Made by a program: the position numbers and the translations under genes. A DNA stretch of 64,000 nucleotides, taken from positions 34,623,159 to 34,687,158 of the forward strand of contig CM049313.1 in assembly GCA_026874595.1 (NCBI GenBank), read 5' to 3'. Below are positions 35,890-61,334 of the stretch, one piece after another; position 1 is the first letter of the stretch; each line of letters opens with the position of its first letter. Source of the DNA: Sipunculus nudus. Its lineage: Eukaryota; Annelida; Sipuncula; Golfingiida; Sipunculidae. The notes under the pieces are model-generated. The model did not search any database, had not been told where the DNA came from, and was given only the letters and a program-made list of their open reading frames with translations.

Positions 35890-36040
35890 AAATATGTATA
35901 AAGCTAGTCATGTTATGGTGTTTATGACTAGTCAACACTGACCGCTGTCACGCTGTGACCGTCAAAGTAATTACAACTCACGAGTAACAGATTGTGCTTT
36001 GATCGTGGGAATGTACGCGAGACCACTACGGATGTCTGAA
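35890..36040 (-). promoter_or_regulatory. Upstream CSL/TCF module, minus-gene copy
   Basis: On the minus strand ATTCCCACGATCAAAG occupies 36012-35997. It holds CGTGGGAA (CSL/Su(H) consensus, reverse strand) next to ATCAAAG (TCF/LEF core). The surrounding blocks GACATCCGTAGT, GTCTCGCGTACATTCCC and GACGGTCACAGCGTG match the plus-strand modules. It lies about 380-400 bp upstream of the TATA box, the same spacing as module B of the plus genes. Confidence 0.65.
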
Positions 36041-36179
36041 TTCCTGTCGGCACCACTGACGCACTATATTTTACATTATCATTTGAATATACATAAGATA
36101 TTATTAAATTGTTAGAGTCGGAATCATTAAGTTCTTTTAAAATTAATAAGTTTTGTTGGTACTTACGGTTTGACACTAA

Positions 36180-38279
36180 TGATTTACTTAGTATATGATC
36201 TTAAATCTATCAGGAAACAAAAGGCAAAGTTTTTCCATGTAAGCTTAATGTATCAAATGTCTTTAAGAATTCCATAGATTTTAATATATTGTAATATTTA
36301 ATGTTTACAAAAACTTAATGTTTACAAAAACGTGAAATACTCTACGATTTCGCATGTTTTCACACAAAATGCAAAATCTATTACTATAAAAATATACTTA
36401 TAAATAATAGTAAACTACAGGTGGCGCCAGCGGTGATTGCATTTATTTCTGTCAGGTGCAATGTTATTTTTCCACTTCCTATTATCAGCCTTAGTTTTCA
36501 TAATGAAATTAACTGTATCTTAGTGCAAGGAAATCCAGGGCGTATGAGTCGAGTCAATATTCTAATCTCAGTCTCACTAAGAGTGATAATTGAATTTTGT
36601 TGAAGTTTGTGATGACGGTAAAACAATGTTCCAGATCCACAGGACTTCAAACGTGACAATCATCTTTTTAAATGATAGCTCACATTTTTTTTTATTTCAA
36701 TGTTTATTTTTTATTATTGTGCACACAATACAACTGTTATTCAAAAGTTTATGTAAAATCCGTTGCTCGCTTGTTCAAATTTATGCATATTTTATCCCTA
36801 CCGCTCCCAATAAAAATATGTCACAAATGATAATAAAAGGCTATTTGAAGCATGTCTTTACATGCATATATTTTGCATTGAAAAGTAGTACTTACAGAAG
36901 TCTTTTCATGGCATCACTGATGTCATACATTCTTTGTTATGCATGTGGTACGGAATACCATACGAACCTATGTGTGAGGTTTATAACAAAAACTAATAAA
37001 GTACACCATGCCTAAAATACCTAACAAAAATATTACACTTTGAAGACAATCGACATGTAATTACCCTGAACTAAAATTATGCAGAAACATAATGAAATAA
37101 ACTGAATTATTGATGATATTTAAATTGCCAACAGAATTAAAACTGATTTGATTTTGACACAGTTTCTAAACGTGCTCATTTTTCAGCTGATTAAGTGGAT
37201 CACTAGGTCACTTGGTCATTTTGATCGTTCCATCTGACGATTTTACTAGCACGTCATGCTTCAGCACTCTGTGAAGTGATTTGAAGCCAATTTTTTCATG
37301 GACCAATGAAAAAGAGATGTGTGCAGTTACCCAGTTTAAGACGGAGTGGATGTGCCAGTTTGATTTGATGGTTGGATGGAAGCGCAATTTCGGCCCTCCG
37401 ACATTAGAGAATCTACGACCAGCTGACCAGCCAAATGTGAATGCTACGGTGTGGTGTTATCACGACCAGTTGAATAGTTACATGGATAGAATGGAGGATA
37501 CAAGGATAGCTGGATATATTTAAGCTATTATTCTCTTGAACGATAAACTCAGGGGAATTTAAATTTAAATCAGAATTTTCGAAATGAAGATGTCTGAAAT
37601 AGGCCAAAACTTTACATAACACGGGGGAAAATATGATAATGTGATCTCACTAATTATGGGCGATACTGCCCCTGCGCTTTTGTTTTGCTATTAAGGCAGT
37701 GCAACCTTTCGAAAGGCTTTAGAAAATATAGCTGCGAAATTATTATCTCCGAGATGCAAGACTTGTTTTTTCGGTGGTGATATATTCTGGACGAGACCTA
37801 AGGGGCATCCATTTTATTAAGGTGAAAGTCAAAGGATTAGCAGTACTCTTTCATATTAACAATAAATTGCAATTCTTTGATTCTCTTCCAAATCTTACAA
37901 AAGTTTGGCATTATAAAAATATTGTGCAATTCAACAAAATACTTCAAATCCAGGATATTTGAGAAATCCAATTAATACAAAAAGTGTGGGCTTTTTTTTT
38001 TACAAAAAAATGATCGTATTGGTCTTCGGACAACGGTAAAACTGATACATTTAATAGTTGACTGTAAACACGAAGACTATATCAATGTATAGAACAATTC
38101 CATCCGGATTTAAATAATCGGTTAATTTTAATTATTGGATGCACACTCATTTTCGTCTTCATCTCTTATAAACAGGGACAGATACACAAAATTCATGGTC
38201 TTGTAAATACTGTTATTTATATAAAGGAAAGTCACCTCATCTCCAACATTAACATTATTTTCACTTGTTGTAAATAAAT
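36180..38279. other. Spacer between the divergent FoxQ2 genes
   Basis: AT-rich and without a recognised gene. An 80-codon open frame at 37281-37523 has a protein-like composition but matches no family I know. A half palindrome, GGTGGCGCCAGC, lies at 36420, without the rest of the array-bearing element. Confidence 0.45.
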
Positions 38280-38515
38280 GCTGAATCTTAACATCCGATT
38301 TGTAAACATATATCTCTCCAACATAGGAAAAATAGCATTTCTGTAACAATGTAAATACAAAATATCCAAAAAAAATTATCGAGAAAACGGTCCTTAAATT
38401 TAACAGAACTCGTTAACTGGATCCACGCATGGTGAAAACAGAATCAATGACAATGTCAAATTAAGTAAGAAATCAATAACATTAGAGTAAGAAACAAATT
38501 AAGTATATACATACC

Positions 38516-38595
38516 ATACGCTCCGTAATCAGCGGTTACGCTATGCTGAACTATTCGCTACACCAGGAGGTCACGTGCTGTCTTCAGAGCGTAAT
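38516..38595. mobile_element. 80-bp micro-insertion with 7-bp target duplication
   Basis: Present only in unit 1. It is flanked by ACATACC on both sides (38509-38515 and 38596-38602), while units 2 and 3 carry that string once. The ends ATACGCTC and GAGCGTAAT are near-inverted repeats. The interior is too short to code. Confidence 0.75.
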
Positions 38596-39153
38596 ACATA
38601 CCAGTAACTTACATAGCCCCATGAGGAGTAATAATACACATCATAACATATACAATATACATCAATCTTTATAAGATAACTGGGAAATAATACAGTTTTA
38701 ATAGGAAAGGGGAAACTATTCCTCATTCATTTCAAGAGCTGCCAGCATAAACGGTTTTGGGATATTAAAAGGCACAACTGATGCCACACTTGCCTAAAGT
38801 TAAACACATGAGGACTATCTCTAGGCCCTTGTAATTTTTGTTATAAGAGATTTACTTAAAATGTCCACGTATTAATGCAAAGTACCATCTATTCATATGT
38901 TAAAGTATAAAATACATGAGTTGCAGAACTGATTAGAAATGGATATGTTAAAAATCTATATCATTTGGTTCATTTTTTCCTTGATCATGTATGATGGCAA
39001 TATCAGCTCAACGTGAGGTTAAATCTTCGATGATTATAGCCACTTCATAAACAAAATAAATGTATTCTGTCTGCTCGGTTGAAATCCCTGTACCGATCTT
39101 GATATAATCCCAGTTTGTGATTCATTTATACATTTAAATTATTTAAGCATACG

Positions 39154-39171
39154 TATATATATATATATATA
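39154..39171. repeat. Short (TA)n run at the edge of the Helitron block
   Basis: About 18 bp of TA dinucleotides where unit 1 departs from units 2 and 3. Confidence 0.85.
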
Positions 39172-39184
39172 CGTCTTTGCGTTA

Positions 39185-39365
39185 ACCTTGTGTCGGAGTC
39201 TGAATGACCTGGACGAACACGTTCTTGTCCGAATGGTGGAATGTCTTCGGCCAAATCGGAGCATGTGTATGTCAAAAATCACGGCAAACCGTAGTGTCAG
39301 AGGAGACACGTAAATTCACACAAATCGCGTTACGCTATTAATATATAGATCCATTATATGCATGG
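39185..39365 (-). mobile_element. Helitron fragment
   Basis: On the minus strand a TCTATATATTAATAGCG start at 39349 leads into the GATTTGTGTGA and GAGCATGTGTATGTC-like blocks of the H family. The bases beyond the start (CCATTATATGCATGGTGTT) also match a segment internal to H1 and H2. It is therefore a broken piece spanning the internal start of a longer copy. No 3' end. Confidence 0.55.
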
Positions 39366-40089
39366 TGTTATGCATAAAACTCTAATTGAAGCCGGGAGGT
39401 TGGCTGGAGAATTTTCGAAGAAGTTGATATGTTAAATAAAATCATTTTTATATGAAAATATATATTATGCTGAACATCGCCATTTAAAGTTGCCCTTCGA
39501 GCCCATGAATCCGCCAATAAAGGAACCTGTTATCTTGCATGGTATAGTGCAGTATAGTGCTGAGACGTAATCTCGATAATTGCATTCCGGTTATAACGCA
39601 CAAAAACTGAGCACTAACATGGTCGGGCAATCCCGCTGCGCAAAAGTTCGTGGTAGCATTATATTGTGATAGCTCAACTGTTCAATTAAATCTCCCCCAT
39701 TGTGTCCGCACTATTATATTTTCATTTAAAATAATAAATATTATATTTAGTGTGTGACATGAGTGCTATTTTTTTCCTCTTTTAGTCATAAATTAAAAAT
39801 ATGAGCGGTGGTTACTGGGGTCTGTCAAAATTGAACAGTCGGCAAATTCAAGTAAATGAGGTCCGTCTTCATCGAAATATTTTTGTAATTATAAATCTTT
39901 CAGTGAATCGGTCATTTACAAATGTGCAACATTTAGAGACTTTGCTCTGTTCTTACATCAACAATAGTGGTGTTTTTATCGGTGTAAATAATAGAAAATG
40001 AGGAAATAGGTTTATGGGGTCCGGGGACCGTGGGGTTCGGGTTTTACACACTACCCTGCATTCACTACCGCTCAGAAAACTGTCATTCT

Positions 40090-40513
40090 TTGAAAGATCC
40101 CCCTTTTGAGCATTTTCCTCACGCGAGATCTCCTTGTGCACAATAGACCTTTTCGCTGCGCGGAGGTTGCCTTTTGAGAAGGGATCATCAATGGGGATTA
40201 TTTCTTGCCGGTCACCGCAAATTTAAGAAAAGCCCAGATAGGGCCCCCGGAGAAAAACTCTGTCCCGCCATCAAACACTCTATGGCCATTGTGTTACCAG
40301 GCCGAAGACACAAAGAAAAGAGGCGCCCGCGGGGGAGCAAATATTAAAATTATTAATTATGCACGAAATACGCAAATATTGCAAATAAAAGAGGGTGGAA
40401 TTTCTTCGGACAAACCCTGAGCATATGTATGTCGAAAATCACGGCAATCCGTACGGCGGTATCAGAGGAGATACGGAAAATCACAAAAATCGCCTTACGC
40501 TATTAATATATAG
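40090..40513 (-). mobile_element. Helitron copy H3, 3'-truncated
   Basis: The minus-strand 5' end TCTATATATTAATAGCG starts at 40513, directly abutting the CTAG end of H2. Similarity to H2 extends to about 40090 through the GAGCAAATATTAAAA and AGGGCCCCCGG blocks. The 3' hairpin is missing. Confidence 0.7.
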
Positions 40514-41773: not shown

Positions 41774-41804
41774 TGACATTTATTTGTGACAGGTCAACAT
41801 GGAC

Positions 41805-41805
<1 letters not shown>

Positions 41806-41846
<41 letters not shown>
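41806..41846. repeat. (TA)n microsatellite
   Basis: About 41 bp of TA dinucleotides at the right edge of the insertion block in unit 1. Confidence 0.95.
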
Positions 41847-41848
<2 letters not shown>

Positions 41849-42556
41849 TAAAGATTATACGTGTGTATTATATAATTCATACTGCATATTAAAAATGTTC
41901 TTACAGGGTACATTTTTTCTTAGATATACGCAAAGAATGTCTCCCCGGCAATGTAATTTGCTGAAGGTCAGACAGGTGTAAATCTGTTACGTGAGTATTT
42001 TTGTGACCAAAGGGCATGCAGTCTTGGAAGCAGCCGTATCAAGCCAAAACAGGTTGAGAAGAATAAAAGAAGAAAAGAAACTTGTGCACTCCAGGGACAA
42101 AGACCCCCCCCCCCCCCCCGAAAAACAAATCTTGACTGAAATATTGGTAAAGAAATAATCAACAACTATATTCTATCCGTCCGTTCCATGGGACGCATTA
42201 ATAAAAAATTGTATTGATAAAGAACAAATCATACACCGTACCTAGTAGCAAAGTAATCAGTGGTTCCACTGCTGGGTAGAATGTATATGAATCCATTCTG
42301 CTGTACTTTTGATTAATTTTGAGTACTTTTCCATATACGCCTTGTTTCATTAGCATATTCCATAAAAGTTATGTTGAATGCAGTCAAACGCTTTGGCAAA
42401 AACAATAAATTTGCTATAAAGTCTGCCTTCTCATTATGTTAATATTAGATATCGAACCGTGTTAATCGTCTGCATTGTGTACTTCGCATACCCCAATAGA
42501 AACGTCAATCTGAACATTTTACACGCTGATAAGATTATATACTTATATACTTATTT

Positions 42557-42830
42557 CTATCAAACTACAGGAAACCAGACATTCGTAGTGGTCTCGCGTA
42601 CATTCCCACGATCAGAGCACAATCTATTACCCGTGACTTGTAGTTACTCTGACGGTCACAGCGTCGTGTCGGTCAGTGTTGACCGACGATATATAAAGCG
42701 TTGCTAGCTTTATACATACAAGTATTTAATAAAAATCTTCGCACATATTTCATCGATTGCCGGTCGTGTACCACCTGTAGACCAGCCCCTCGGGGCGTCT
42801 ACATATGAGGTTGTATGGCCGTCTGACTTT
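42557..42830 (+). promoter_or_regulatory. FoxQ2 upstream module A, unit 1
   Basis: This is about 270 bp related to module B downstream. ATTCCCACGATCAGAG at 42602-42617 keeps the CSL-type site but has a changed TCF core (TCAGAG). A TATATAAA lies at 42690-42697. The block ends in the shared GGCGTCT and GTATGGCCGTCTGA strings. Function is inferred from conservation only. Confidence 0.55.
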
Positions 42831-43970
42831 ACAGAACTCTATAATATACATAACGATATATTTTAAAAACAGAAATGAAGTATTTTAAACACAGTTTGAA
42901 TATTCTCTGAATAATGGGAGACGTTATTATTGTAGATTTTTTGCCAATATATTTTAAGCAAAGTTGCTACATTTATTATAATGCAATCTGTCTATTAATT
43001 CAGTTCTAGCGTAACCCCATAAGTCACCGCCATGTAAAATAACGGTTACAACACACTATCAAATACGTATATAGAAGTTGTTCAACAAACACATTTCTGG
43101 CTAAAACTTTTCTTAATACAGATGGATTTGATCCTTGTATGACAGATTACTTCTGAAACAGTCCAAAGATATTTATTATATGAAACTTTGTAATATGAAG
43201 CTTTGAATCTTTTGTTTCCCATGTACTATGCTTTCTGTTTTGAATGCCACCGTTTTATGGAAACCATATAATTTTAATGTTATCCGTTTTATTTATCAAC
43301 CACACTTTGCACACATTATAGTTTTGTTAAGTTGGTTAACTAATATCCTCGTCTATGACATATGTAGAATCTCATCAATCTTGTAGTTTCAATTATTTAG
43401 AATGCAGGAAAATTTATTTACTTGCTAGAAGTCTAAAAGGTATTTAATGATTTCATTCTTTATTTCATAACTTTCAATATTTTCCATTTAAGTGCTTGTT
43501 CATAAGCACATACGATAAAAAATATTTTATATAGTCAAACGCTTTCGAAAAATCAGTTAAAATAAAATCTGCCTCGTCATAGTGTTAAATATTTTGATTT
43601 TAGACCCATATATGGTCCACTGTGCGGTATTAATTAAACCATGACAACACTTCTGACTCTATTTCTTGCTTTTACACGAATTCATATATGTTTTTGCAAA
43701 AATAAAGAATGTGCGCACAGGTGACAAAATACAATATATTTTCGAAAAAAAAGAAACCACTGATCAGTCTCTACTTTTTACTTTTTGATAAGATTTTAAT
43801 GTAACATCTGCTATTGCAGATGAAAGATTTAATCATTTATTATACCTTTAAGGTTTTGAGCGGAACATGGTTTAAACACCAAAACAACAACGAAACCGTC
43901 GTTAGAATTTAAGGAAAGCGGCACTAGACTTACTAATAATGATTAATACATCTATAAATTATATACTTAC

Positions 43971-44240
43971 TTCTATCGAACTAGGAAGCCAGACATCCGT
44001 AGTCGTCTCGTGTAAATTCCCACGATCAAAGCTTAATCTAAAACTCGTGATTTGTAATTACTATGACGGTCACAGGGTGGTCTCGGCCAGCTTTTACCGG
44101 TGATAAACACCGTAATATATCTGGCTATAGGTATATTTAATAAAAATCATCGCATATATTTCATTAATTGCTGGCCGTGTACCGCTCGTGAACCAGCCCC
44201 GTGGGGCGTCTGTGAGAGCTTGTATGGCCGTCTGAGTTGG
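43971..44240 (+). promoter_or_regulatory. FoxQ2 upstream module B, unit 1
   Basis: ATTCCCACGATCAAAG lies at 44016-44031, about 380 bp upstream of the TATA box. Shared flanks are AGACATCCGTAGT, GTCTCGTG, TATGACGGTCACAG and CCAGCCCCGTGGGGCGTCTG. The CSL-type and TCF/LEF-type sites overlap by a base or two, so one factor may exclude or help the other; that is inference. Confidence 0.6.
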
Positions 44241-44261
44241 TGGTTAACACTGGGTTGTATA

Positions 44262-44430
44262 TGTTTGAACTTCGGGGTTTATTAGCTTAATGTAACTGTC
44301 CGGGCCCGGGCTCGTGCCCGACTGAATAACAGTAATCAACTGACCATCAACCGAGGCTGTGATAATTTTAATTTACTGTCGTATGTTATGAGACTATATA
44401 TACAGGTACGGTATGTAAGCAAGCCATCAC
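44262..44430 (+). promoter_or_regulatory. FoxQ2 core promoter, unit 1
   Basis: TATATATA is at 44395-44402. An initiator-like TCAC at 44427-44430 lies about 32 bp downstream, which would give a 5' UTR of about 97 nt. Upstream, TTTATTAGCTTAATGTAACT and GTCCGGGCCCGGGC are conserved in all four genes of the window. Confidence 0.7.
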
Positions 44431-44525
44431 TTTCTCTCTGAAGCTCACACACACTCTGACCATAGTAAAATCACTCACTCATACATTGGAAGTTTTGACA
44501 GACTGACTGCCAGATAAAATATAAC

Positions 44526-45887
44526 ATGGAGGAAAACAGCAGCATCGGTAAGTAGTTTAAGGTATCAGTTCTTTCTGATAAAAAAGGGGCGTGGAGGGGT
44601 GATCGAAAGCTCTATGTTGACCATACCACTTAGAAATATAAAAGCATAAAACTGACAGATAATACAGTGTATTATACACTATTGTTCCTTAAGTAATGAA
44701 TGAGAAAGAAAACGAAACAGAATTTTGCATGGGGATTCGATGAGCTATATCCTTGGCTGCAATAACAATTGATTTTCAGTCATCATTTGTCTCTCCCTGT
44801 TTTCAAGAGCATCCTTAACTATTTGATTATTATATTTTTATTTTATTTTATTACATTTTTATGAAATTATATACGTTTTGTATATAATCTGAGTCACAGG
44901 ACACATCTCCTTTAATATACTCTGATTAAAATAACTGTTCACTTTATGACTGTTTTCTTCACGCTGGACCAGTTTTAACTTGATTATCTTTTGTTTTTAG
45001 CATCTCCACTGTCACCAGTATCAAATATCAGCTCACATTCCAGTGAGATGACTGTTCAAGAAAACGATGGTTATGACATGAAAACGTCACCAATGTCCGT
45101 GGACGATTTAGACCTCAGCTTCTCAGATGCAAATGATGCGTTCCCGGAAATGACGCAGGAGGACGTTACCGGTCTGCCAAGGAAAGGCGGGAAGAAGCCT
45201 GTCCTGTCTTATATAGGGATCATTGCCATGGCCATCATGAGCTCCCCCAAGAAAAAGATGCTCCTGTCTGAGATATACCAGTGGATCTCGGAGAAATTCT
45301 TGTACTTTAAACAAAACGATCGAAGCTGGAGAAACAGCATTCGTCATAATCTGTCACTTAATGAATGTTTCGTGAAGTCAGGTCGCAGCGAAAACGGTAA
45401 AGGTAACTACTGGACAATACATCCGGCTAATTTGGAAGACTTCAGCAAAGGCGATTTCCACCGACGCCGAGCGCGCAGGCGCGTCCGGAAGAGTGAAGAC
45501 ATGCAACGTCATCAAACTAAATATCTGACCACTACGTCACTTCCGGGAGAGTGCATGCATGCCACTCCAAATGGCTATGTACCAATGTCCAGCACAGTTT
45601 TACCAACCCATGTCCTGACGCAGATGTTTGGGGCTGAAAACATTTTAACTCGCGAAGAGCAACTTAGTCAGTACTTCTCAGCTGTTAACCCCGTTGGCGC
45701 ACCAACTGTCAATCATATGACGTCGTCATTGGCATCCCCAGTGTCCGATTCTGCAACGTTTACCTCATCACCATTTTCTGACAAGTCACCTTTAACGATG
45801 GCCTACCCGCACGGTTATCAGTTACTGTCGCCCCCTCTTGCGGCCTGCCGTGAAAATGGTTGGCAAGACTTTTTGGTCCCATTGTAA
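44526..45887 (+). CDS. foxq2: FoxQ2-type forkhead transcription factor, copy 1
   Basis: Exons 44526-44547 and 45001-45887 join across a 453-bp GT-AG intron to give 302 residues starting MEENSSI. Exon 1 is 22 bp and the junction splits an Ala codon. Residues about 72-168 are a forkhead (winged-helix) domain, with recognition helix [15 protein letters not shown] (119-133) and [20 protein letters not shown] after it. A strongly basic tail [11 protein letters not shown] (about 161-171) is a likely nuclear signal and DNA contact. The wing phrase with IHPAN-EDF and the RRRARRRVR tail are typical of FoxQ2, a family expressed in anterior/apical ectoderm and downstream of Wnt in many animals. The usual KPxYSY start is KPVLSY here. 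I see no clear EH1 repressor motif. The N-terminal part is acidic and Ser-rich. Of the three plus copies it is the most diverged. Confidence 0.88.
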
Positions 45888-46166: not shown

Positions 46167-47279
46167 ATAAATGTATATCTTTAAATACGTTTATTAGTTT
46201 TAAATTCGACAGATAATCTCACAGGTACTTGTCCTTCATGGTTTTATAAATTCAAGACATGATCAGCATAAACTGATCTGATGTACTGTCCACCTAATCT
46301 GACTTACTGTCCACTAAGTTCCTCACGTGCTTTACTTACACCGTTTCTGGTACAGGGTCAAGAATCAGCCCAAAGAGAGCGGGTGTCACATGTTTAAAAG
46401 GACATAATCAGGAGCAATATTATGGCTATTCTTTCATACTATCAGTTCAGTTTTGCTTTATACAAAAATATTCCCAGCAAAACAATCCTAGCACACAGTC
46501 TCAGTATCTCGCATACGGCTGTTTTACACCTGGTAATGGCTCTGCGTGTTCATCATAACAAGGTCCCGTTACCGGAGGTCCAATCGTGAACCGCAACACG
46601 CGGTGTTTCAGCAAACGGGAACAGGTATAATTACATTTTCTGGGCCAAGTCATTCAGTCACTCCTGATTGACACGTGAAGTGGCTCCACAATGCACACGG
46701 CCCCACGGGCTGTGTTTATGTTGACACCTGTGATCGTGCACAGTCCAGTTTTTATAACTCGTTTACAGGAGTAAGCATACGGTTTTACGGCAATATTTTG
46801 GCAGGTACAGTTTAATTGAAAGGGAAGAAGCTATTTTTCGTGTTAATTCAACATGCTTTATAGGTGATTGGGCCCTTTATAAAATTTCGAACTGGATGCT
46901 AAATGCGATACCACGTTCTCTTTGGTTTGATTACTATTCTTTATTGTGCCAGCCAAAGCAACGTTAAAACGAGAAAGATTTTGGACGACTGCAGTGTATA
47001 ACCGCCGCTGGAGGAGTGTAGCTGTCCAAGAATTATACACATTTTCTTAATATAGTATTCACCAAGGATGAATCAAGTCAACCTGTTCTTATATATTCGT
47101 GCCCTGGCAGTGACTGCAGTTTTGCCGGATATTTAGAAATATTAATGTCTAAATACCTTTTGCTTCCCTATTCACGATCCGTCCATGCATAAGGTCTTAA
47201 TCCTTTGTTGACTGTAGTATTCTAGGGCCTACCCGAATTCAATCCTGTCCTATTTGAAATATTTAAAGTCCCATCACTG

Positions 47280-49015
47280 TATCCCCAGACAAAGTCGGGG
47301 GATACTATGTTTTCATACCGGTCCCGCCGCCGCCGCATATAAATCTTGTTGGCGCGATAACTCAAAAAATATTTCACGGATCTTTACCAAACTTGGTATA
47401 TGTATAGATATGGGTGAGAGGAAGACGTCTCTGTAAAATGAGGTCATGACCTTCATTAGGAGAGTGTCCCTGACCTTGAATAGGTCCAACTTTGGGGAAA
47501 ATCACAGAAATTCTTTAAATATCTCAAGAAATCTTGCATGAATTGATCCCAAAATCAAGTTGATCGAAGATAATGGATAGGGTTGTCATGTTCAAGAAAC
47601 TGGTGGCGCCACCTATTATTTTTTACTTGTTTTCATGCCTTTTAATACCCCCAAAATTACCACTTGACAGTACTGTGAGCATTATAAGTCAAAAACTAAT
47701 GGACAGATTTCTTTTATATTTTGCATATACATAAATATGGGTTATAGGATGATGTTTATTTAAATTGGGGTCATGGCCTTTCCTATGAGAGTGGCCTTGA
47801 CCTTGAATATTCCCATATTGGGTGAAAATTTACACAAAATGTTTAATATCTCAGTAAGGGATACATGGAATGATCCAAAAATCAAATTAACCGAAGATCT
47901 TGGATAGCTTTGTCTTTTGCAGAAGACAGGTGGCGCCACCTTGTGTCGTTTTCTTGTTAAAATTATGTTAACGCAATTACTTTGTAAAAATTTGAGGTTC
48001 AGTAACCAAACCCACAGGTTTGATGCATCTTATCAACGGCTAGGTCAAGTTTGAACATGGATGACCTTGATGCATTTTTTTCAAGGTCACAGCAGTGATT
48101 ATGCTAAACTGATTTAAGGGCAATAACTAATAAAGAATTAGTGGTACAGTCACCAAACCTACAGTTTAGATGCATCTTATCAAGGGCTAGGCCAAGTTCG
48201 ATTATGGATGACCCTGATGCATTTTTCAAGGTCACAGAGGCGATAACGCTGAAATGATGTCAACTTTAATATCTCACTTAGGGATGCATGGATCGGTCCA
48301 AAAATCAAATTAACCGAAGATCTTGGATAGCTTTGTCTTTTGCAGAAGACAGGTGGCGCCACCTTGTGTTGTTTTCTTTTTAAAATGATGTTAACGCAAT
48401 AAATTTGTAAGAATTTGAGGTACAGTCACCAAACCCACAGGTTTGATGCATCTTATCAACGGCTAGGGCAAGTTCGAACATGGATTACCTTGATACATTT
48501 TTCAAGGTCACAGCAGCAATTATGCTAAAATGATACAAGGGCAATAACTCGAACAGAATTTGTGGTAAAGTCACCAAACCTACAGTTTCGATGCATCTTA
48601 TCAAAGGTTAGGCCAAGATCGAATATGGATGACCTTGATGCATTTTTCAAGATCACAGATGCGATAGCACTGAAATGATGTTAACTTTAATATCTCACTG
48701 AGGGAAGCATGGATTGATCCAAAAATTTAAAATTGATATAAGATCTTTGATAGCATTGTTTTCTGCAGAAGACAGGTGGCGCCACCTTATGTTGTTTTCT
48801 TGCTAAAATGATGTTTAAACTGAATAACTTTGTAAGAATCTGAGGTACAGTCACCAAACCCACAAGTTTGATGCATCTTATCAACGTCTAGGTCAAATTT
48901 GAAAAGAAACCATGGTGGCTTGCCAAGTGTCAGATTCTGCATCTGAATTCAAGATGTGATCCTATTCTTCGAGGCTGGGGGGAGGGGGGGGGGGGGGTTT
49001 AATTGTCTAGGGATA
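47280..49015. mobile_element. Array-bearing non-autonomous element, family A, copy 2
   Basis: The ends TATCCCCAGACAA and TTGTCTAGGGATA are inverted repeats with one mismatch. The left end forms a hairpin with GGGGGATA, followed by CTATGTTTT, CCGG and (CCG)n, mirroring the right end of the element at 15458-17175. Inside, GACAGGTGGCGCCACCTT recurs at 47925, 48348 and 48771 (423-bp period), with a fourth palindrome near 47603. Units 2 and 3 of the FoxQ2 array lack the element; the insertion relative to them spans about 47276-49042, slightly more than the inverted ends. No coding capacity. Confidence 0.75.
47925..48900. repeat. Tandem array, 423-bp period
   Basis: Two full units and part of a third start at 47925, 48348 and 48771. 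Repeated phrases are GATGCATCTTATCAA, TTTTTCAAGGTCACAG and GTCACCAAACC. The motif TCAAGGTCA, on either strand, occurs intact about seven times in the whole element. Confidence 0.85.
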
Positions 49016-49350: not shown

Positions 49351-49351
<1 letters not shown>

Positions 49352-49401: not shown

Positions 49402-49405
<4 letters not shown>

Positions 49406-49760: not shown

Positions 49761-51975
49761 TCCCATGAACAATTTGTCTTCGAAGCAATATATCTCATAA
49801 TTATACCAGGAATTAGGTCCACCTTTGTTTGCAATTTTCCTTGAAACCGCGTTTTGTATGACACTATGCTATACCTCATTTAAAATGTTATCGTTCCCGC
49901 AGTGACCTCGCCGATATGAGAATAAATAACTTTTAATGTGCACATCATTTTGAGTGATTTTTGCTTGTTTTGTGATTTGCGTGGAGGTTACCACAGCAAA
50001 TAGCCGAACTGCCTTCGGCAAAGACTGGATTGCCTGTGTGGTCACCTGGTGATCTGTTCATTTAAGTAATACAAACAACCTGCAACGACTCCAAAACCAG
50101 TAACCAGTCAAAGATCATCGAATGGCCCCGCGTCCTATTCCGCTTCGCAAATGTAAACATCGTGACTGACCAGGTCTTCAAGGTAAACATTACGGTGTAT
50201 GAATTTCTTGTCACGAGCATAGCGCCACAAATTAAATGTAAAAAAAAATATTCATAAATATCTTATTGAGACAGTATCCAGAGGAAAATCTAAATTTTCT
50301 TTTAATTTTTAGAATATAAACAAATGAGACATTAAAGCCAATGACATTAAAATATTAAACTTGGCATCACATTTGTAAATATACACTTTTCCAAAATAGG
50401 AGAAATAGCATTTCTGTAACATAATGTAAATAAAAAATATCCAAAAAAATTATTGAGAAAAAAAGTTTTTCCCTGGAAAACTGCACAGGCATAAAGTTCG
50501 TTCCTAAAATGTAACAGATCTCGTTAACTGGATCTATGCATGGTGAAGTCAGAATCAAGAACAACGTCAAGTTAAGTAAGAAATCAATTAACAGAGTAAG
50601 AAACAAATTAATGTATACATACCAGTAACGTTTAGAGCCCCGTTAGGTGTAATAATACACATCATTACATATACATCTTATGTCAACTTTATTTGAAAAC
50701 TGGGAAATAAAACAGTTTAAACAGGAAAGGGGAAAATATTTCAGAACTACCCCATTTCAAGAGCTGCCAGCATAAACGGTTTTGGGATAACAAAAGGCAT
50801 CACTGATGGCACACTTGCCTATAGTTAAACACATGAGGACTATCTCGAAGCCCTTGTTGTTTTTATTATTAGAGGTTTACTTTAATATTATAACCTTGTA
50901 TAAATGCAAAGTACCATATTTTCATATTTAAAAGTATAAAATACATAATCTGCAAAACTGATTAGAAATGGATATCATCAAAATTAAGTATCTTTTTAAA
51001 ATCGATTTCATCAGGTTCATTTTATATCCTTGATCGTGCATGATGGACATATCAGAGCAACATGAGGTTCAATCTTCGATAATTTATAGCCACTTCGTAA
51101 ACAATAAAAATGTATTCTGTCTTCTCGGCTGATATCCCTGTATCAATCTTGATATACTGCCGGTAAGTGATTTATACATCTTATTTTTTAGCATGCTTAG
51201 AATAATAAAAATTATACGTGTGTAAAGCCAAGGTTTTTTTTTCAATTACGTGTATTACATAATTCCTACTGCATATTATATATTTTCTTCCAGGGTACAT
51301 TTTATCTTACATATATGCAAAGAATGTCTCCCCGGCAACCATCTCGTAATTACCTGAAGGTCAAACATAGATATCAGGTGCAAATCTGTCACGCGAGTAT
51401 TTTTGTGACAAAAGGGCCTGGAGTCTTGGAAGCAGCCTTATCAAGCCGAAACAGGGACAGAAGAATAAAAGAAGAAAAGAAACTTGTGCCCTCCGGAGAA
51501 CAAAGAGCTCTCCCCTTCCCCCTGAAAAAAAATCTGGACTTAAAAATTGGTAGGGAAATAACCAACAACTATATTCCACCCATCCGTTCCGGGGGACGCC
51601 TTAATGAAAATTTTAATTAATAAAGAAATAACCATACACCCTACCTAGCAGCAAAGGAGCAGGTTAAAGTAATCGGTGGTTCCACTGACGGGAAGAATGT
51701 ATATGATTTCATTCTGTTGTACATTGATTAGATGACTTTGAGGACTTTTCCATATATGCCTTGTTTCATTAGCATATCCCATAAAAGTTATGCTGAATGC
51801 AGTCAAATGCTTATGGTAATAAATAAATACACTATAAAGTCTGCCTTTTTTATTATATTAAATATTCGATGTTAAACCTTATAAAACCTCTGTATTGTTT
51901 ACTATGCATACCCCTAAAGAAATGTCAATCTGCACATTTTACACGCTGATAAGATTATATAGCTATATAATTATT

Positions 51976-52246
51976 TCTATCAAACCTACAGGAAACCAGA
52001 CATCCGTAGTAGTCTCGCGTTCATTCCCACGATCAAAGCACAATCTGTTACTCGCGAGTTGTAGTTACTCTGACGGTCACAGCGTGATGTCGGTCAGTGT
52101 TGACCGATGACATATAAACCGTAACTAGCTTTATACATACATGTATTTAATAAAAATCATCGGACATATTTAATCAATTGCCGGCCGTGTACCACCTGTA
52201 GACCAGCCCGGCGGGGCGTCTGTTTGAGGTTGTTTCGCCGTCTACC
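51976..52246 (+). promoter_or_regulatory. FoxQ2 upstream module A, unit 2
   Basis: ATTCCCACGATCAAAG at 52023-52038 has both the CSL-type and TCF/LEF-type sites intact, unlike module A of unit 1. CATATAAACC replaces the TATA-like string of unit 1. Confidence 0.55.
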
Positions 52247-53458
52247 TTGACAAAACTCTGTGATATATATAACGATATATTTTACAAACAGAAATGAACT
52301 ATTTTAAACACAGTACTGAATATCCTCTGAATAATGCAAATCTACCTACGACGGTTACTATTGTAGATTTTTTGCCCCTATATATAAAATATTAAACATT
52401 TATTATTATGCAGTCTGTCTATTCATTAAGTTTTTTGTTTTTCTGGAAACCATATAATTTTAATGTTATTCGTTTTATTTCTCAACAATTTTTTTGCTTA
52501 CTGAAAAAAAATTCTATCAGCAAAGATTATAGTTTTGTTAAGATGGAAAACTAATATCTGCGTCTATGACATATGTAGTATCTCATCAATCTTGCAGTTA
52601 GGGTTATTTAGAATGCAGTAAAATTCACTTACCAACTAGAGCTCAAGGTCAGACCTAAGTATCAGGTGCAAATATGTTACCTGTGAGCATTGCTGTGATC
52701 AAAGAAAAGAATTTTCTCGTCTTTTTACTATCAATGGACCAAAGGAACCCCCCCCCCCCAAATAAAAAAAAATAAATACTAATAATTAATATAAATACTT
52801 GCCCCAAATATCGACATAGCAATAAACTCATCAACAGCAATATTCTTTTCGATGGTGCCTTAAGAAAAAAACTAACCATACAACCCTGTCTTGTATCTTA
52901 CGTAAAATACTGGGTTATTCCACCACCTATATGTAATGGTTTCATTCTTTATTTAATAAATTTCAATATATTTCCATTTAAATTCAGTTTCCTTAGCACA
53001 CACCATATAAAAGATATATTTTATGCAGTCAAATGCTTTGGAAAAATCAGTTAATATGAAATAAAATCTGCCTCCTGTTTGTGTTGACTATTTTTATTTT
53101 AGACCCATTTGGTCAACTGTGCGGTATAAATTAAACCATGACAGCACTTTTGATTCTATTTCTTGCTTTTACATGGATTCATATATAATGCTTTTTGAAA
53201 AAGAATGTGCGCAAAGGTGAAAATATAATATATTTTCGAAAAAAAAAACACTGAGTAGTCTGTACATTTTATTTTTGATAAGATATAAATGTAATATCTG
53301 CTAGCAGATAAAAGATTGAATCATATATTATACCTTTAAGGTTTTGAGCGGCACATGGTTTAAACACCAACACAACAACGAGACCTGTCGTTAGAATTTA
53401 AGGAAAGCGGCACTAGACTTACTAATAATAATAAATACACGTACAAATTATATACTTA

Positions 53459-53728
53459 CTTCTATCCAACTAGGAATCCAGACATCCGTAGTCGTCTCGT
53501 GTACATTCCCACGATCAAAGCATAATCTAAAACTCGTGATTTGTAATTACTATGACGGTCACAGCGTGTTCTCGGCCAGAGTTTACCGGTGATAAACACC
53601 GTAAAATCACTGGCTTAAGGTATATTTAATAAAAATCATCGCACATATTTCATTAATTACTGGCCGTGTACCGCTCGTGAACCAGCCCCGTGGGGCGTCT
53701 GTAAGAGCTTGTATGGCCGTCTGAGTTG
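53459..53728 (+). promoter_or_regulatory. FoxQ2 upstream module B, unit 2
   Basis: ATTCCCACGATCAAAG is at 53505-53520, about 365 bp upstream of the TATA box, with the same flanking blocks as module B of unit 1. Confidence 0.6.
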
Positions 53729-53749
53729 GTGGTTAACACTGGGTTGTAT

Positions 53750-53920
53750 ATGTTTGAACTTCGGGGTTTATTAGCTTAATGTAACTGTCCGGGCCCGGGC
53801 TCGTGCCCGACTGAATATCAGTAATCAACTGACCATCAACCTAGGCTGTGATAATTTTAATTTACTGTCGTATGTTATGAGACTATATATACAGGTACGG
53901 TATGTAAGCAAACCAGCACT
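53750..53920 (+). promoter_or_regulatory. FoxQ2 core promoter, unit 2
   Basis: TATATATA at 53884-53891, with the conserved GTCCGGGCCCGGGC and TTTATTAGCTTAATGTAACT blocks upstream. Confidence 0.7.
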
Positions 53921-54012
53921 TTCTCTCTGGAGCTCGGACACACTGACCATAGGAAAATCACTCACTGATACACTGGAAATTTTGACGGACTAACTGCCAG
54001 ATACAATATTAC

Positions 54013-55373
54013 ATGGAAGAAATCAGCAGCATCGGTAAGTAGTTTAAGGTATCAGTTTTTTCTGTTATAAAAGGGGCGTGGAAGGGTAATCGACAGGTCT
54101 ATGTTGACCATACCACTTTGAAATACAAAGCATAATACTGACAGATAATACAGTGTATTATACACTATTGTTCCTTAAGTAATGAATGAGAAAGAAAACG
54201 AAACAGAATTTTGCATGGGGATTCGATGAGCTATATCCTTGGCTGCAATAACAATTGATTTTCAATCATCATTTGTCTCTCCCTGTTTTCAAGAGCATCC
54301 TTAACTATTTGATTATTATATTTTTATTTTATTTTATTACATTTTTATGAAACTATGTACGTTTTGTATATAATCTGAGTCACAGGACAGATCTGTTTTA
54401 ATATACTCTGATTAAAATAACTGTTCACTTTATGACTGTGTTCTTCACGCTGGACCAGTTTTAACTTGATTATCTTTTGTTTTCAGCGTCTCCGCTGTCA
54501 CCAGTATCAAATATCAGCTCACATTCCAGTGAGATGACTGTTCAAAAAAACGATGCTTATGACATGAAAACGTCACCAATGTCCGTGGACGATTTAGATC
54601 TCAGCTTCTCAGATGCAAATGAGGCGTTCCCGGAAATGACGCAGGGGGACGTTTTCGGTCTGCCAAGGGAAGGCGGGAAGAAGCCTGTCCTGTCTTATAT
54701 TGGGATCATTGCCATGGCCACCATGAGCTCCCCCAAGAAAAAGATGCTCCTGTCTGAGATTTACCAGTGGATCTCGGAGAAATTCTTGTACTTTAAACAA
54801 AAAGATCGAAGCTGGAGAAACAGCATTCGTCATAATCTGTCACTTAATAAATGTTTCGTCAAGTCAGGTCGCAGCGAAAACGGCAAAGGAAACTACTGGA
54901 CAATACATCCGGCTAATTTGGAAGACTTCAGCAAGGGCGATTTCCACCGACGCCGAGCGCGCAGGCGCGTCCGGAAGAGTGAAGACATGCACCTTCATCA
55001 AACTAAATATCTGACCACTACGTCACTTCCGGGAGAGTGCATGCATGCCACTCCAAATGGCTATGTACCAATGTCCAGCACAGTTTTACCAACCAATGTC
55101 CTGACGCAGATGTTTGGGGCTGAAAACATTTTAACTCGCGAAGAGCAACTAAGTCAGTACTTCTCAGCTGTTAACCCCGTTGGCGCACCAACTGTCAATC
55201 ATATGACGTCGTCATTGGCATCACAAGTGTCCGAGCCTGCAACTTTTACCTCATCACCATTTTCCGACAGGTCACCTTTAACGGTGGCCTACTCGCACGG
55301 TTATCAGTTACTGTCGCCCCCTCTTGCGGCCTGCCGTGAAAATGGTTGGCAAGACTTTTTGGTCCCATTGTAA
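54013..55373 (+). CDS. foxq2: FoxQ2-type forkhead transcription factor, copy 2
   Basis: Exons 54013-54034 and 54487-55373 join over a 452-bp intron to 302 residues starting MEEISSI. The domain layout is as in copy 1. This copy has two unusual changes inside the forkhead domain: Ile86 to Thr in the first helix (IAMATMSS) and Glu129 to Lys in the otherwise near-invariant NECF after the recognition helix (LSLNKCFV). Against copy 3, exon 2 differs at 18 bases, 10 of them changing the residue. That fits mild relaxation of constraint, but the reading frame, splice sites and promoter are all intact, so I call it a gene. Confidence 0.87.
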
Positions 55374-55646
55374 CCAAGTGGCATTTCTTTAAACACTTTG
55401 AATGTTTTGATTTGCATAACACATGACTTTTCTTAATGTGATATCTGTGAAATGACAATAACTGTGATAACTTCCCTATGGAAAAACTGAATGTCTGTTA
55501 TCGTTCTCTTCTTGTTTAAATGAATGATCATTATGTTAATTATTATGACTGAAATATGATAATTAGTATATACATTTATATGTCGACAACATCTGTGATA
55601 CTCTTAATGTTATATTTGTATTAATTGTTTTTTTTTAAACGAATAT

Positions 55647-55657
55647 AATAAAATAAA
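55647..55657 (+). terminator. Poly(A) signals, FoxQ2 copy 2
   Basis: Two overlapping AATAAA hexamers about 274 bp after the stop. Confidence 0.75.
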
Positions 55658-57072
55658 TGTATATCTTTAAATACGTTTATTAGTCTTAAATTCGACAGAT
55701 AATCTCACAGGTACTTGTCCTTCATGGTTTTATAAATTCGAGACATGATCAGCATAATCTGATCTGATTTACTGTCCACCTAATCTGACTTACTGTCCCC
55801 TACGTTCCTTACGTGCTTTACTTACACCGGTTCTGGTACAGGGTCAAGAATCAGCCCAAAGAGAGCGGGTGTCACATGTTTAAAAGGGTATAATCAGGAG
55901 CAATATTATGGCTATTCTTTCATACTATCAGTTCAGTTTGCTTTATACAAAATAATTCCCAGCAAGACAATCCCAGCACACAGTCTCAGTATCTCGCATA
56001 CGGCTGTTTTACACATTGTAATGGCTCTGCGTGTTCACCATAACAAGGTCCCGTTACCGGAGGTCCAATCGTTAACCGCAACACGTGGTGTTTCAGCCAG
56101 CGGGAACATGTATACTTAAATTTTCTGGGCCAAGTCAGTCAGTCACTCCTGATTGACATGTGTAATGGCTCCACGCGCTGTGTTTATGTTGACACCTGTG
56201 ATCGCGCACAGTCCAGTTTTTATAACTCGTTTACAGGAGTAAGCATACGGTTTTAAGGCAATATTTTGGCAGGTACAGTTTAATTGAAAGGGAAGAAGCT
56301 ATTTTTCGTGTTAATTCAACATGCTTTATAGGTGATTGGGCCCTTTATAAAATTTCGAACTGGATGCTAAATGCGATACCACGTTCTCTTTGGTCTGATT
56401 ACAATTCTTTATTCCTTGCCAGCCCAAGCAAGGTTAAAAGGAGGAAGATTTTGGACGACTGCAGTGTAAATCAACGCTTTAGGAGTGCAGCTGTCCAAGA
56501 ATTAGACACGTTTCCATAATATAGAATTCACCAAGGATGAATTAAGTCGACCTGTTCTTATATATTCGTGCCCTGGCAGTGACTGCAGTTTTGCCGGATA
56601 TATAGAAATATAAATGTCTAAATACCTTTTGCTTCCCCATTTACGATCCGTCCATGCATAAGGTCTTAATCCTTGGTTGACTGTAGTATTTTCAAGGGCC
56701 TACCCGAATTCAATCCTGTCCTATTTGAAATGTTTAAAGTCCCATCATAAATACGTTTTTTATAAACACCAACTTTGATTTCTTTTTCAAGAAATCCTCT
56801 TACTTATTTTGACAAAATATAAATATGCAACATTCGTGAACCACCTAAATATGAAATTAAGCTCATCGAGACCTACCATGGGTGTTATTTCAGGAAGTGC
56901 AGGACACCACCCAGTTGGGCATGACAGGTTATATATAAACACAACAACCGCGCGCCGGGGAGATTGAGTGAAATTTAATTAAATATTTTAAAGCTATAGA
57001 AGGCTTGCATTTGAAATTTAAATATTGCCTCATTTACGACGGTACGTGACACACACATACGTATATATATAT

Positions 57073-57430
57073 GGTTACGTGGTGACATAAATGCGGACCG
57101 AACTGTCTCGCTAGTAAATCCTGCTTTTCTAGCGAAGCAGTTGGGACGCCGGATATATGCGCCACCGGCATGGGTTCGAATCCCGGGATTTGTCTTCATA
57201 ACAAACGGGGGCGCGTCCGGGATGACGGCAAACTTTGTGGCCCAGGGAATGGTGGTTTGAAGTAATTTTGCAATCACCGCCACCTACTTCACCAAAAGTG
57301 TGACTCCTGGGACAGTTAATAAAAGCGGACCGAACTGTCTCGCTATTGAAACTTACTTTCAAGGGAAGCGGTCAGTATGCCGGACATGTCCGCCGGCGAC
57401 ACGGGCTCGAATCCCGGATCGGTCCAATAT
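57073..57430 (+). mobile_element. Paired tRNA-like SINE, unit 2/3 junction
   Basis: This is the counterpart of 49402-49760. TAGCGAAGCAGT and GGGTTCGAATCCCGG lie near 57131-57185. The second half has GGGAAGCGGTCAGTATGCC and GGGCTCGAATCCCGG (57364-57417), a B box with one change. Confidence 0.55.
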
Positions 57431-59626
57431 TTTCCCATGAACAATTTGTCTTCGAAGCAATATATCTTATAATTATACCAGGAATTAGGTCCACCTTTCT
57501 TTGCAATTTTCTCTGAAACCGCGTTTGGTATGACACTATGCTTTACCTAATTTAAAATGTTATCGTTCCCGCAGTGACCTCGCCGATATGAGAATAAATA
57601 ACTTTTAATGTGCACATCATTTTGAGTGATTTTTGCGTGTTTTGTGATTTGCGTGGAGGTTACAGCAAACAGCCGAACTGCCTTGGGCAAAGACCGGATT
57701 GCCTGTGGTCGCCTGGTGATCTGTTCATTCTAAACAAGCCAAGTAAGACAAACAACCTCCAACGCCTCCAACTACCAGTAACCAGTCAAAGATCATCAAA
57801 AACTTGAATGCCCCCGCGTCCTATTCCGCTTCTCAAATGTAAACATCGTCACTGACCAGGTCTTTAAGGTAAACATTACGGTGTATGAATTTCTTGCCAC
57901 GAGCATAGCGCCACAAAATAAATCTAAAACATATATTTAAAAATTTCTTATTGAGACATTATCCAAAGGAAAATTAATATTTTCTTTTAATGTTTAGAAT
58001 ATTAACAAATGAGCCATTAAAGCCAATGACATTAAAATTTAATCTTAGCATCACCTTTGTAAATATATACCTCTCCAAAATAGGAAAAATAGCATTTCTG
58101 TAACATAATGTAAATAAAAAATATCCAACAAAATTATTGAGAAAAAAAGGTTTTCCCTAGAAAACTGCACAGGCCCAAAGTTCGTTCCTAAAATGTAACA
58201 GACTCGTTAACTGGATCCATGCATTGTGAAATCAGAATCAAGAACAATGTCAAATTAAGTAAGAAATCAATTAACATTAGAGTAAGCAACAAATTAATGT
58301 ATACATACCAGTCACTAATACAGCCCCATGATATAATAACACACATCATTACATATACATCTTATGTCATCTTTATTTGAAAACTGGGAAATAAAACAGT
58401 TTAAACAGGAAAGGGGAAAATATTTCAAAATTCACTCATTTCAAGAGCTGCCAGCATAAAAGGTTTTGGGATATTAAATGGAATCACTGATGCCACACTT
58501 GCGTATAGTTAAACACATGACGATAATCTCTAGGCCCTTGTTGTTTTTATTATTAGAGGTTTACTCAAATAACCTTGTATAAATGCAAAGTACCATCTTT
58601 TCATATTTAAAAGTATAAAATACATAATCTGCAAAACTGATTAAAAATTGGATATCATCAAAATTCAGTATCTTTTTAAAATCGATTTCATCAGGTTCAT
58701 TTTTTATCCTTGATCGTGCATGATGGATATATCAGCGCAACCTGAGATTCAATCTTCGATAATTTATAGCCACTTCGTAAACAATATAAATGTATTCTGT
58801 CTTCTCGGCTGATATCCCTGTATCGATCTTGATATACTGCCGGTTTGTTTTTAGCATGCTTGGAATAATAAAAATTATACGTGTGTAAAGCCAAGGTTTT
58901 TTTTCAATTACACGTATATATAATTCCTACTGCATATTATATATTTTCTTACAGGGTACATTTTACCTTACATTTTTGCAAAGAATGTCTCCCCGACACC
59001 TCGTAATTACCTGAAGGTCAAACATAGATACCAGGTGCAAATCTGTCACGTGAGTATTTTTGTGACATACAGTCTTGGAAGCAGCCGTATCCAGCCGAAA
59101 CAAGGAGAGGAGAATAAAAGAAGAAAAGAAACTTGAGCCCTCCGGGGAACAAAGAGCTCCCCCCCCCCCTTCCCCTGAAAAAAAATCTGGACTTAAAAAT
59201 TGGTAAGGAAATAATCAACAACTATATTCCACCCATCCGTTCCTGGGAACGCCTTAATGAAAATTTTCATAATAAAGAATTAACCAGACACCCTACCTAG
59301 TAGCAAAGGAGCAGGTTAAAGTAATCGGTGGCTCCACTGACGGGTAGAATGTATATGATTTCATTCTGTTGTACATTGATTAGATGACTTTGAGGACTTT
59401 TCCATATATGCGTTGTTTCATTAGCATATATCATAAAAGTTATGTTGAATGCAGTCAAACGCTTTGGGTAATCAATAAATATACTATAAAGTCTGCCTTT
59501 TCATTATATTAAATATTACATGTTAAACCTTATAAAACCTCTGCATTGTTTACTACGCATACCCCTAAAGAAATGTCAATCTGCACATTTAACACGCTGA
59601 TAAGATTATATAGCTATATAATTATT

Positions 59627-59898
59627 TCTATCAAACTACAGGAAACCAGACATCCATAGTAGTCTCGCGTACATTCCCACGATCAAAGCACAATCTATTA
59701 CTCGCGAGTTGTAGTTACTCTGACGGTCACAGCGTGATGTCGGTCAGTGTTGACCGATGACATATAAACCGTAACTAGCTTTATACATACATGTATTTAA
59801 TAAAAATCATCGCACATATTTAATCAATTGCCGGCCGTGTTCCACCTGTAGACCAGCCCGGCGGGGCGTCTGTTTGAGGTTGTTTAGCCGTCTACCTT
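59627..59898 (+). promoter_or_regulatory. FoxQ2 upstream module A, unit 3
   Basis: ATTCCCACGATCAAAG is at 59673-59688. Flanks are almost identical to module A of unit 2. Confidence 0.55.
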
Positions 59899-61064
59899 GA
59901 CAAAACTCTGTAATATATATAACGATATATTTTACAAACAGAAATGAAATATTTTAAACACAGTACTTCATATCCTCTGAAAAATGCAGATCTGCCTACG
60001 ACGGTTACTATTGTAGATTTTTTGCCCCTATATATAAAGTATTAAACATTTATTATTATGCAATGAGTGCCACCTTTTTCTGGAAACCATATATTAACTG
60101 AAAAAAAATTCTATCAGCAAAGATTATAGTTTTGTTAAGTTGGAAAACTAATATCTGCGTCTATGACATATGTAGTATCTCATCAATCTTGCAGTTAGGG
60201 TTATTTAGAATGCAGTAAAATTCATTTACCAACTAGAGCTCAAGGTCAGACCTAAGTATCAGGTGCAAATATGTTACCTGTGAGCATTGCTGTGATCAAA
60301 GAAAAGAATTTTCTCGTCTTTTTACTATCAATGGTCCAAAGGAACACCCCCCCCCCCACCCCCCAAAAAAAAATAAATAAATAAATACTAATAATTAATA
60401 TAAATACTTGCCCCAAATATCGACATAGCAATTAACTCATCAACAGCAATATTCTTTTCGATGGTGCCTTAAGAAAAAAACTAACCATACAACCCTGTCT
60501 TGTATCTTACGTAAAATACTGGGTTATTCCACCACCTATATGTAATGGTTTCATTCTTTATTTCATAAATTTCAATATATTTCCATTTAAATTCAGTTTC
60601 CTTAGCACACACCATATAAAAGATATATTTTATGCAGTCAAATGCTTTGGAAAAATCAGTTAATATGAAATAAAATCTGCCTCATGTTTGTGTATACTAT
60701 TTTTATTTTAGACCCATATGGTCAACTGTGCGGTATAAATTAAACCATGACAGCACTTTTGATTATATTTCTTGCTTTTACATAGATTCATATATAATGC
60801 TTTTTGAAAAAGAATGTGCGCTTAGGTGGAAATATAATCTATTTTCGAACAAAAAACTGATTAGTCTGTACATTTTATTTTTGATAAGATATAAATGTAA
60901 TATCTGCTAGCAGATAAAAGATTGAATCATATATTATACCTTTAAGGTTTTGAGCGGAACATGGTTTAAACACCAACACAACAACGAGACCTGTCGTTAG
61001 AATTTAAGGAAAGCGGCACTAGACTTACTAATAATAATTGATACACGTACAAATTATATACTTA

Positions 61065-61334
61065 CTTCTATCGAACTAGGAATCCAGACATCCGTAGTCG
61101 TCTCGTGTACATTCCCACGATCAAAGCATAATCTAAAACTCGTGATTTGTAATTACTATGACGGTCACAGCGTGGTCTCGGCCAGAGTTTACCAGTGATT
61201 AACACCGTAAAATAACTCGCTTAAGGTATATTTAATAAAAATCATCGCACATGTTTCATTAATTACTGGCCGTGTACCGCTCGTTAACCAGCCCCGTGGG
61301 GCGTCTGTAAGAGCTTGTATGGCCGTCTGAGTTG
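61065..61334 (+). promoter_or_regulatory. FoxQ2 upstream module B, unit 3
   Basis: ATTCCCACGATCAAAG is at 61111-61126, about 365 bp upstream of the TATA box. Confidence 0.6.

Follow-up and report, generated by a model that had tools for sequence, protein, structure and literature searches.

The DNA considered here is a stretch of 64,000 nucleotides from the sipunculan Sipunculus nudus (GCA_026874595.1, contig CM049313.1, denoted C8 below), which corresponds to C8:34623159-34687158 of a 1.43-Gb assembly and is referred to as the window. It carries genes of the FoxQ2 type, a class of forkhead genes, whose upstream regions share a promoter module of about 280 bp. Within this module recurs a 16-bp word, ATTCCCACGATCAAAG, in which a consensus match for CSL/Su(H) adjoins one for TCF/LEF.

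Four forkhead open reading frames (ORFs), each with a match to Pfam PF00250, are located in the window and belong to an array of nine genes, running from the inverted G0 to G8, of which G4-G8 lie to the right of the window as far as C8:34731613 (array span C8:34656935-34731613). By gene models and splice sites inferred from the sequence, G1-G8 have in common a TATA box, a short exon 1 containing the ATG, a splice donor, and an acceptor followed by the main exon. In G0, the exon-1 ATG has become ATA, intron 1 and the acceptor region are not alignable, and an in-frame TAA stands at 34110-34112; the remaining open frame keeps an intact forkhead domain, with a ratio of nonsynonymous to synonymous divergence (dN/dS) of 0.24-0.37 against seven other genes, and the promoter blocks are intact. 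G0 is thus probably a relic (pseudogene) or an N-terminally truncated gene, and the four genes named in the original prediction reduce to three genes and this probable relic, in view of its lost start codon and acceptor and the in-frame stop. Outside the window, G6 has a stop directly after the forkhead domain.

A forkhead family search of the genome returned 62 matches, nine of them in this array, 17 in a second array at C8:71704586-71794846 (four of the 17 with an in-frame stop), and one at a single FoxQ2-type gene at C8:46609558 (L028), which brings the FoxQ2-type forkhead domains of this genome to about 27 (9 + 17 + 1). Among the loci fetched, the domains of the second array and of the single gene are 64-67% identical to those of the present array, as against at most 59% for other forkhead loci. 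In a tree restricted to forkhead genes of this genome (27 rows from 30 loci, three near-copies dropped), all three loci fall into a single clade that excludes the remaining Fox genes (100/99); they are represented by 5/9, 8/17 and 1/1 of their genes, that is, 14 of the 27 domains. The FoxQ2-type label is our presumption from characteristic residues, together with the fit to the literature. A further forkhead cluster was noticed at C9:37.56 Mb and C9:39.12-39.18 Mb, where L040 and L044 have a long branch of their own in the tree. The single gene encodes FDVESLLAP C-terminal of its forkhead domain, which we take to resemble the EH-i-like motif; no such motif was noticed in the present-array proteins. 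Loss of an EH-i-like motif has been proposed for expanded FoxQ2 copies in the passages concerned of PMC9539403.

The module is present in 16 copies, nine proximal (one per gene, one of them interrupted by some 880 bp of inserted sequence) and seven distal (G1-G7), and its measured length is close to the 270 bp first given. All seven sites proposed in the window proved correct: six carry the exact word and the seventh, at 42602, a single mismatch (ATCAGAG), whereas seven matches at up to three mismatches were never reached when the window was dinucleotide-shuffled 100 times; TTCCCACG alone is likewise confined within the window to these seven sites. Across the array the word occurs in 16 of 16 modules, 13 times exactly and with the one change ATCAGAG in the distal modules of G1, G6 and G7. 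Genome-wide, in searches that scored the best candidates and read some stretches as N, the exact word was found 13 times in 1.43 Gb, every time at C8:34659155-34728646, within 70 kb, while its reversed-pattern control was found nowhere. Similarly, a DNA search with one module (E <= 0.001) gave 17 pieces representing the 16 modules, all in the array. Of the 26 one-mismatch places listed, three are inside the array and 23 scattered across the genome, the latter at about chance level, as roughly 32 are estimated for the 48 one-letter variants. At up to two mismatches, 688 matches compare with 449 for the reversed-pattern control; many of the two-mismatch matches have ATTCCAACGATCAAAA in common, which may be part of an unrelated dispersed repeat and partly explain this excess. 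The possibility, raised with the original prediction as one that would count against it, of a word scattered as a dispersed repeat thus received no support in this genome, and an origin of word and module from such a repeat was rejected.

From the end of the word to TATATATA, the TATA box, there are 363 bp in eight of the nine genes and 375 bp in G0, near the 365-400 bp earlier proposed; as the whole interval is homologous, however, the equal spacing reflects shared descent, and what had been presented as a constant distance in four genes is an inherited one.

The copies of the module are recent duplicates, and the word recurs almost certainly because of duplication. G3 and G4 modules show zero differences, and the proximal modules of G1, G2, G3, G5 and G6 are on average 3.9% apart, as is their core promoter, in comparison with 3.5% for introns, 3.6% for 3' flanks and 2.9% for exon 2 in the same five genes. 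Between G2 and G8, the module differs by 11.5% (0.115) with a synonymous divergence (dS) of 0.12. The dS of G0 amounts to 0.11-0.14 against the seven genes compared (G4 excluded), being 0.13, 0.12 and 0.13 against G2, G1 and G8, respectively, from which its module differs by 0.19, 0.21 and 0.13; exchange between units could lower dS. Independent conservation across the seven modules is accordingly not supported, since proximal divergence approximates that of introns and 3' flanks, and the informative contrasts are those among distal, proximal, G0 and G8 types rather than among seven or sixteen copies. A recent gene-conversion origin of the shared block, with distal and proximal modules exchanging sequence, was considered and rejected, because identity within a gene (0.783 in G1, 0.794 in G2 and 0.791 in G3, three of the seven genes) is not above that between genes (0.779-0.798). 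Exchange between whole units is hinted at by 1014 bp after G2 (55377-56390) that are identical to 1014 bp after G3 (62987-64000), despite modules, introns and exons that are 2-3% apart in the two genes.

Against this background of shared descent, change is unevenly spread. In the alignment of 16 modules, 148 Fitch changes fall on 240 columns, an average of 0.62 per column, and the word, with 2 changes against an expectation of 9.9 (Poisson 0.003, on the premise that it was chosen beforehand), ranks with the 16-bp stretches of the module that have changed least. Its CSL half has 0 changes, as has a 10-column bin that covers the greater part of the CSL site, and an unchanged run of 13 bp within the word is the longest in the module (permutation P = 0.054). 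Conservation is clustered along the module, with P of 0.060, 0.072, 0.064, 0.028 and 0.013 for windows of 5, 8, 10, 16 and 25 columns. Moreover, the distal modules are 5.6% apart, against 8.7% for the spacers between modules, and this slower change supports a functional element. Among the nine proximal promoters there are four invariant blocks of at least 17 bp, namely 29 bp, 23 bp (TATA box included), 22 bp, and 17 bp in the word, ATTCCCACGATCAAAGC; four such blocks were obtained in 0 of 10,000 permutations of all columns and in 0.38% when gapped columns were excluded. The presence of the TATA box, a known functional element, among these blocks makes the other three credible. The 29-bp block, absent from the original prediction, is the longest invariant block of the promoter and longer than the word (Table 1). 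In comparisons of G0 with G2, G1 and G8, the stretch before the TATA box diverges by 10%, 9% and 12%, in contrast to 19%, 21% and 13% for the module and 21%, 22% and 16% for the leader, respectively.

Table 1. Promoter modules, invariant promoter blocks, FoxQ2-type genes and another feature of the window (positions counted from the first nucleotide of the window).
Feature	Position	Strand	Remarks
G0 proximal-type module	35787..36050	-	word 35997-36012, exact
G1 distal module	42544..42824	+	word 42602-42617, TCF half altered (ATCAGAG)
G1 proximal module	43960..44238	+	word 44016-44031, exact
G2 distal module	51964..52243	+	word 52023-52038, exact
G2 proximal module	53449..53727	+	word 53505-53520, exact
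G3 distal module	59615..59893	+	word 59673-59688, exact
G3 proximal module	61055..61333	+	word 61111-61126, exact
TATA box TATATATA of G0	35614..35621	-
22-bp block GCCGTCTGAGTTGGTGGTTAAC (G1)	44227..44248	+	invariant in nine proximal promoters; 168 bp before TATA
29-bp block CGGGGTTTATTAGCTTAATGTAACTGTCC (G1)	44273..44301	+	invariant in nine proximal promoters; 122 bp before TATA
29-bp block CGGGGTTTATTAGCTTAATGTAACTGTCC (G0)	35716..35744	-
29-bp block CGGGGTTTATTAGCTTAATGTAACTGTCC (G2)	53762..53790	+
29-bp block CGGGGTTTATTAGCTTAATGTAACTGTCC (further copy)	61368-61396
23-bp invariant block with TATA box (G1)	44385..44407	+	TATATATA at 44395
G0, inverted FoxQ2-type forkhead ORF	33336..34070	-	244 amino acids from internal Met; Pfam Forkhead 116.6 bits
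G1, two-exon FoxQ2-type gene	44526..45887	+	exon 1 from ATG 44526, intron, exon 2 to 45887
G2, FoxQ2-type, main exon	54477..55373	+	ORF
G3, FoxQ2-type, main exon	62087..62983	+	ORF
Reverse transcriptase fragment	11771-12313		Pfam RVT_1

The candidate binders follow from two consensus sequences, YGTGRGAA for CSL/Su(H) and SCTTTGATS for TCF/LEF. The first is matched by CGTGGGAA in 16 of 16 modules, and the second by GCTTTGATC (CTTTGAT) in 13 of 16, the remaining three, all distal, reading CTCTGAT. The two consensus matches adjoin with a one-base overlap, in which the final TCF base is the initial CSL base, so that the abutting arrangement first described is borne out. In 20,000 shuffles of one module, the CSL consensus appeared in 2.7%, the TCF consensus in 12%, and both within 3 bp in 0.015% (0.00015), a figure that overstates the case because both factors were picked after the word had been seen. 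In 144 kb, YGTGRGAA occurs 24 times, and 16 of these are the words. Each of the 16 modules holds one YGTGRGAA, and the Su(H) paired site, which consists of two inverted CSL sites about 15-17 bp apart, was accordingly not found in them; the high-affinity CSL consensus is what the modules have in common with such paired sites of Notch targets, from which they differ in having a single CSL consensus with a TCF-type site adjoining instead of an inverted pair.

A CSL and TCF pair within 60 bp was not found in 40 kb of the single FoxQ2-type gene and the second array (L047-L050 among the loci), where five CSL sites occur, nor in 23 further loci of 3.2 kb (nine of the second array, one of the single FoxQ2-type gene and 13 of other forkhead genes). 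These scans covered 11 of the 17 second-array genes, the promoter of the first gene in part. As far as the sequence was read, the CSL/TCF composite is private to the present array, and it is therefore not a general FoxQ2 feature. On the 3' side of two second-array genes, TGTGGGAA and TGTGAGAA were noticed 118 bp apart (L049, 71717276/71717394; L050, 71724515/71724633), with no TCF consensus within 60 bp of these sites.

Taken as a whole, the best explanation, which we hold with moderate confidence, is a duplicated promoter module with a preserved footprint, most likely of CSL and, less surely, of an abutting TCF. An upstream promoter module of about 280 bp, in a distal and a proximal copy, was, as the sequence shows, carried with the FoxQ2-type unit into nine tandem copies, and the distal/proximal duplication would have preceded the multiplication of the genes, because distal and proximal types group apart. 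Inside this module, the word is probably a functional footprint, that is, a site kept by protein binding in a way comparable to the TATA block. At CGTGGGAA, CSL/Su(H) may well be the binder, the arguments being about evenly balanced, while binding of both CSL and a TCF/LEF-type HMG protein, the latter at the adjoining GCTTTGATC in most copies, can be proposed only tentatively. The array could then be modulated by Notch and Wnt status in parallel, a scheme whose weakest points are the participation of TCF and the sign of the Wnt effect. The evidence for a footprint is modest and convergent, and the identity of the factors is plausible.

The following results weigh against this explanation. With the seven modules of the window, in whose alignment 66% of the 253 columns do not vary, the word holds the longest run, of 13, with a column-permutation P of 0.30, and the best 16-column score of the word is tied by other stretches; the claim that the word is conserved in these seven modules therefore stands for its presence in all of them, and not for conservation significantly above that of its own module. 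With 16 modules, the best 16-column window has a P of 0.29, its score being common to three overlapping shifts; a run of at least 16 among the nine promoters is not rare singly (P 0.15), and a run of at least 17 in the three-lineage subset G0, G8 and G2 has a P of 0.32. As single-block tests are weak, support came from the larger set of modules and from the joint four-block test. When dS and synonymous sites are used as neutral proxies, the module as a whole is not clearly slower, except in the distal-spacer comparison, and synonymous-site and intron divergence are about that of the whole module. For the factors, their identity leans on consensus sequences chosen after the word was seen; three of the seven distal modules, though none of the nine proximal ones, depart from the consensus in the TCF half; and the scanned parts of other FoxQ2-type loci lack the composite. 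Furthermore, GCCGCCR, a helper site near the HMG site that is used by Drosophila TCF and is dispensable for some TCF proteins, has no exact match in any of the 16 modules (286 bp each), and this negative scan slightly lowered our already tentative confidence in joint CSL and TCF binding.

The strongest rival to the footprint explanation draws on the same results, and holds that the word is functionless and merely hitch-hikes in a recently duplicated module, its CSL/TCF consensus match being due to chance. The agreement of module divergence with that of introns, 3' flanks and synonymous sites is what it predicts, the non-significant single-block permutation tests are in keeping with it, and, with G3 and G4 nearly identical, the number of copies is inflated. 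However, it has to account for 0 changes in 13 columns over 16 copies against the module average per column, for clustered conservation that places the word among four long blocks with the TATA box, and for a composite with so low a frequency in shuffled modules; we consider it rather unlikely, though it is the alternative that survives best.

Unlikelier than hitch-hiking is a footprint left by some other factor, for instance a zinc-finger protein that recognizes TTCCCA or all 16 bp, or, at ATCAAAG, a Sox protein in place of TCF. The invariant run of 13 bp, ATTCCCACGATCA, crosses the junction of the two sites and ends at neither consensus, and three modules differ at one position within the TCF core, both of which observations fit such a factor; on the other side stand the matches to the CSL consensus in every module and to the TCF consensus in 13. 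The least probable alternative, a domesticated dispersed repeat (of the kind of a miniature inverted-repeat transposable element or a short interspersed nuclear element) from which each gene acquired the word independently, would suit the sharp limits of distal/proximal homology at about 280 bp, but it is contradicted in this genome by module pieces and exact words confined to the array, and hardly needs to be entertained. Within the footprint explanation, the most far-reaching version is a single switch, at which CSL and TCF co-bind or exclude each other and through which 16 copies and nine FoxQ2-type genes would read the same Notch/Wnt state as a lineage-private, dosage-amplified hub; this version is improbable, slightly more so after the negative helper-site scan.

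Further features of the window include a tandem repeat of five copies of a 280-bp unit with GGTGGCGCCACC at 15563-16954, the same 12-mer being also found in a 423-bp repeat unit at 47842-48903. A sequence of about 480 bp in the 3' region of array genes (46394-46879) has a 73-75% inverted relative 40 kb away (3900-4381). No structured RNA in the window was matched by Rfam at gathering scores.

Regulation and multiplication of FoxQ2 have been described in other animals. In the amphioxus FoxQ2 study (PMC12828049), upstream blocks with predicted factor sites were likewise defined by conservation, although the passages concerned deal with five species and name Meis, Pou6 and SoxB among the factors, whereas paralogues of one genome and CSL/TCF consensus matches are at issue here; neither "tcf" nor "rbpj" occurs in its main text. 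According to the same passages, Wnt appears to negatively regulate FoxQ2I and FoxQ2II (PMC12828049), so that a simple activating Wnt input is not predicted, and the TCF site could have a repressive role. The combined Notch/Wnt input initially suggested is thus retained as a possibility insofar as CSL and TCF consensus matches adjoin, and is weakened by this published lowering of FoxQ2 and by a TCF half that is not strictly kept. Literature searches for FoxQ2 together with CSL and TCF, or for abutting CSL/TCF sites, gave nothing on point by title and start of abstract, which is weak evidence of absence. Lineage-specific multiplication of FoxQ2 is also reported for spiralians (Owenia fusiformis and others; PMC9539403), with largest sets of 10, 11 and 13 paralogues and, in the passages concerned, no treatment of promoters, as compared to the nine near-identical tandem copies with shared modules described here; 13 FoxQ2 domains are called a record in the relevant part of PMC12828049, against about 27 in this genome.

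If the composite is functional, the array would constitute a natural experiment on how a developmental regulator can multiply and yet retain its signalling inputs, the material being 16 module copies, three with the TCF half altered, beside genes that look intact, truncated or decaying. The near-identical paralogues may also be used as a footprinting set, for which the TATA box provides a built-in positive control. If, on the other hand, the word has hitch-hiked, the array would usefully warn against counting the recurrent motifs of a tandem array as independent evidence.

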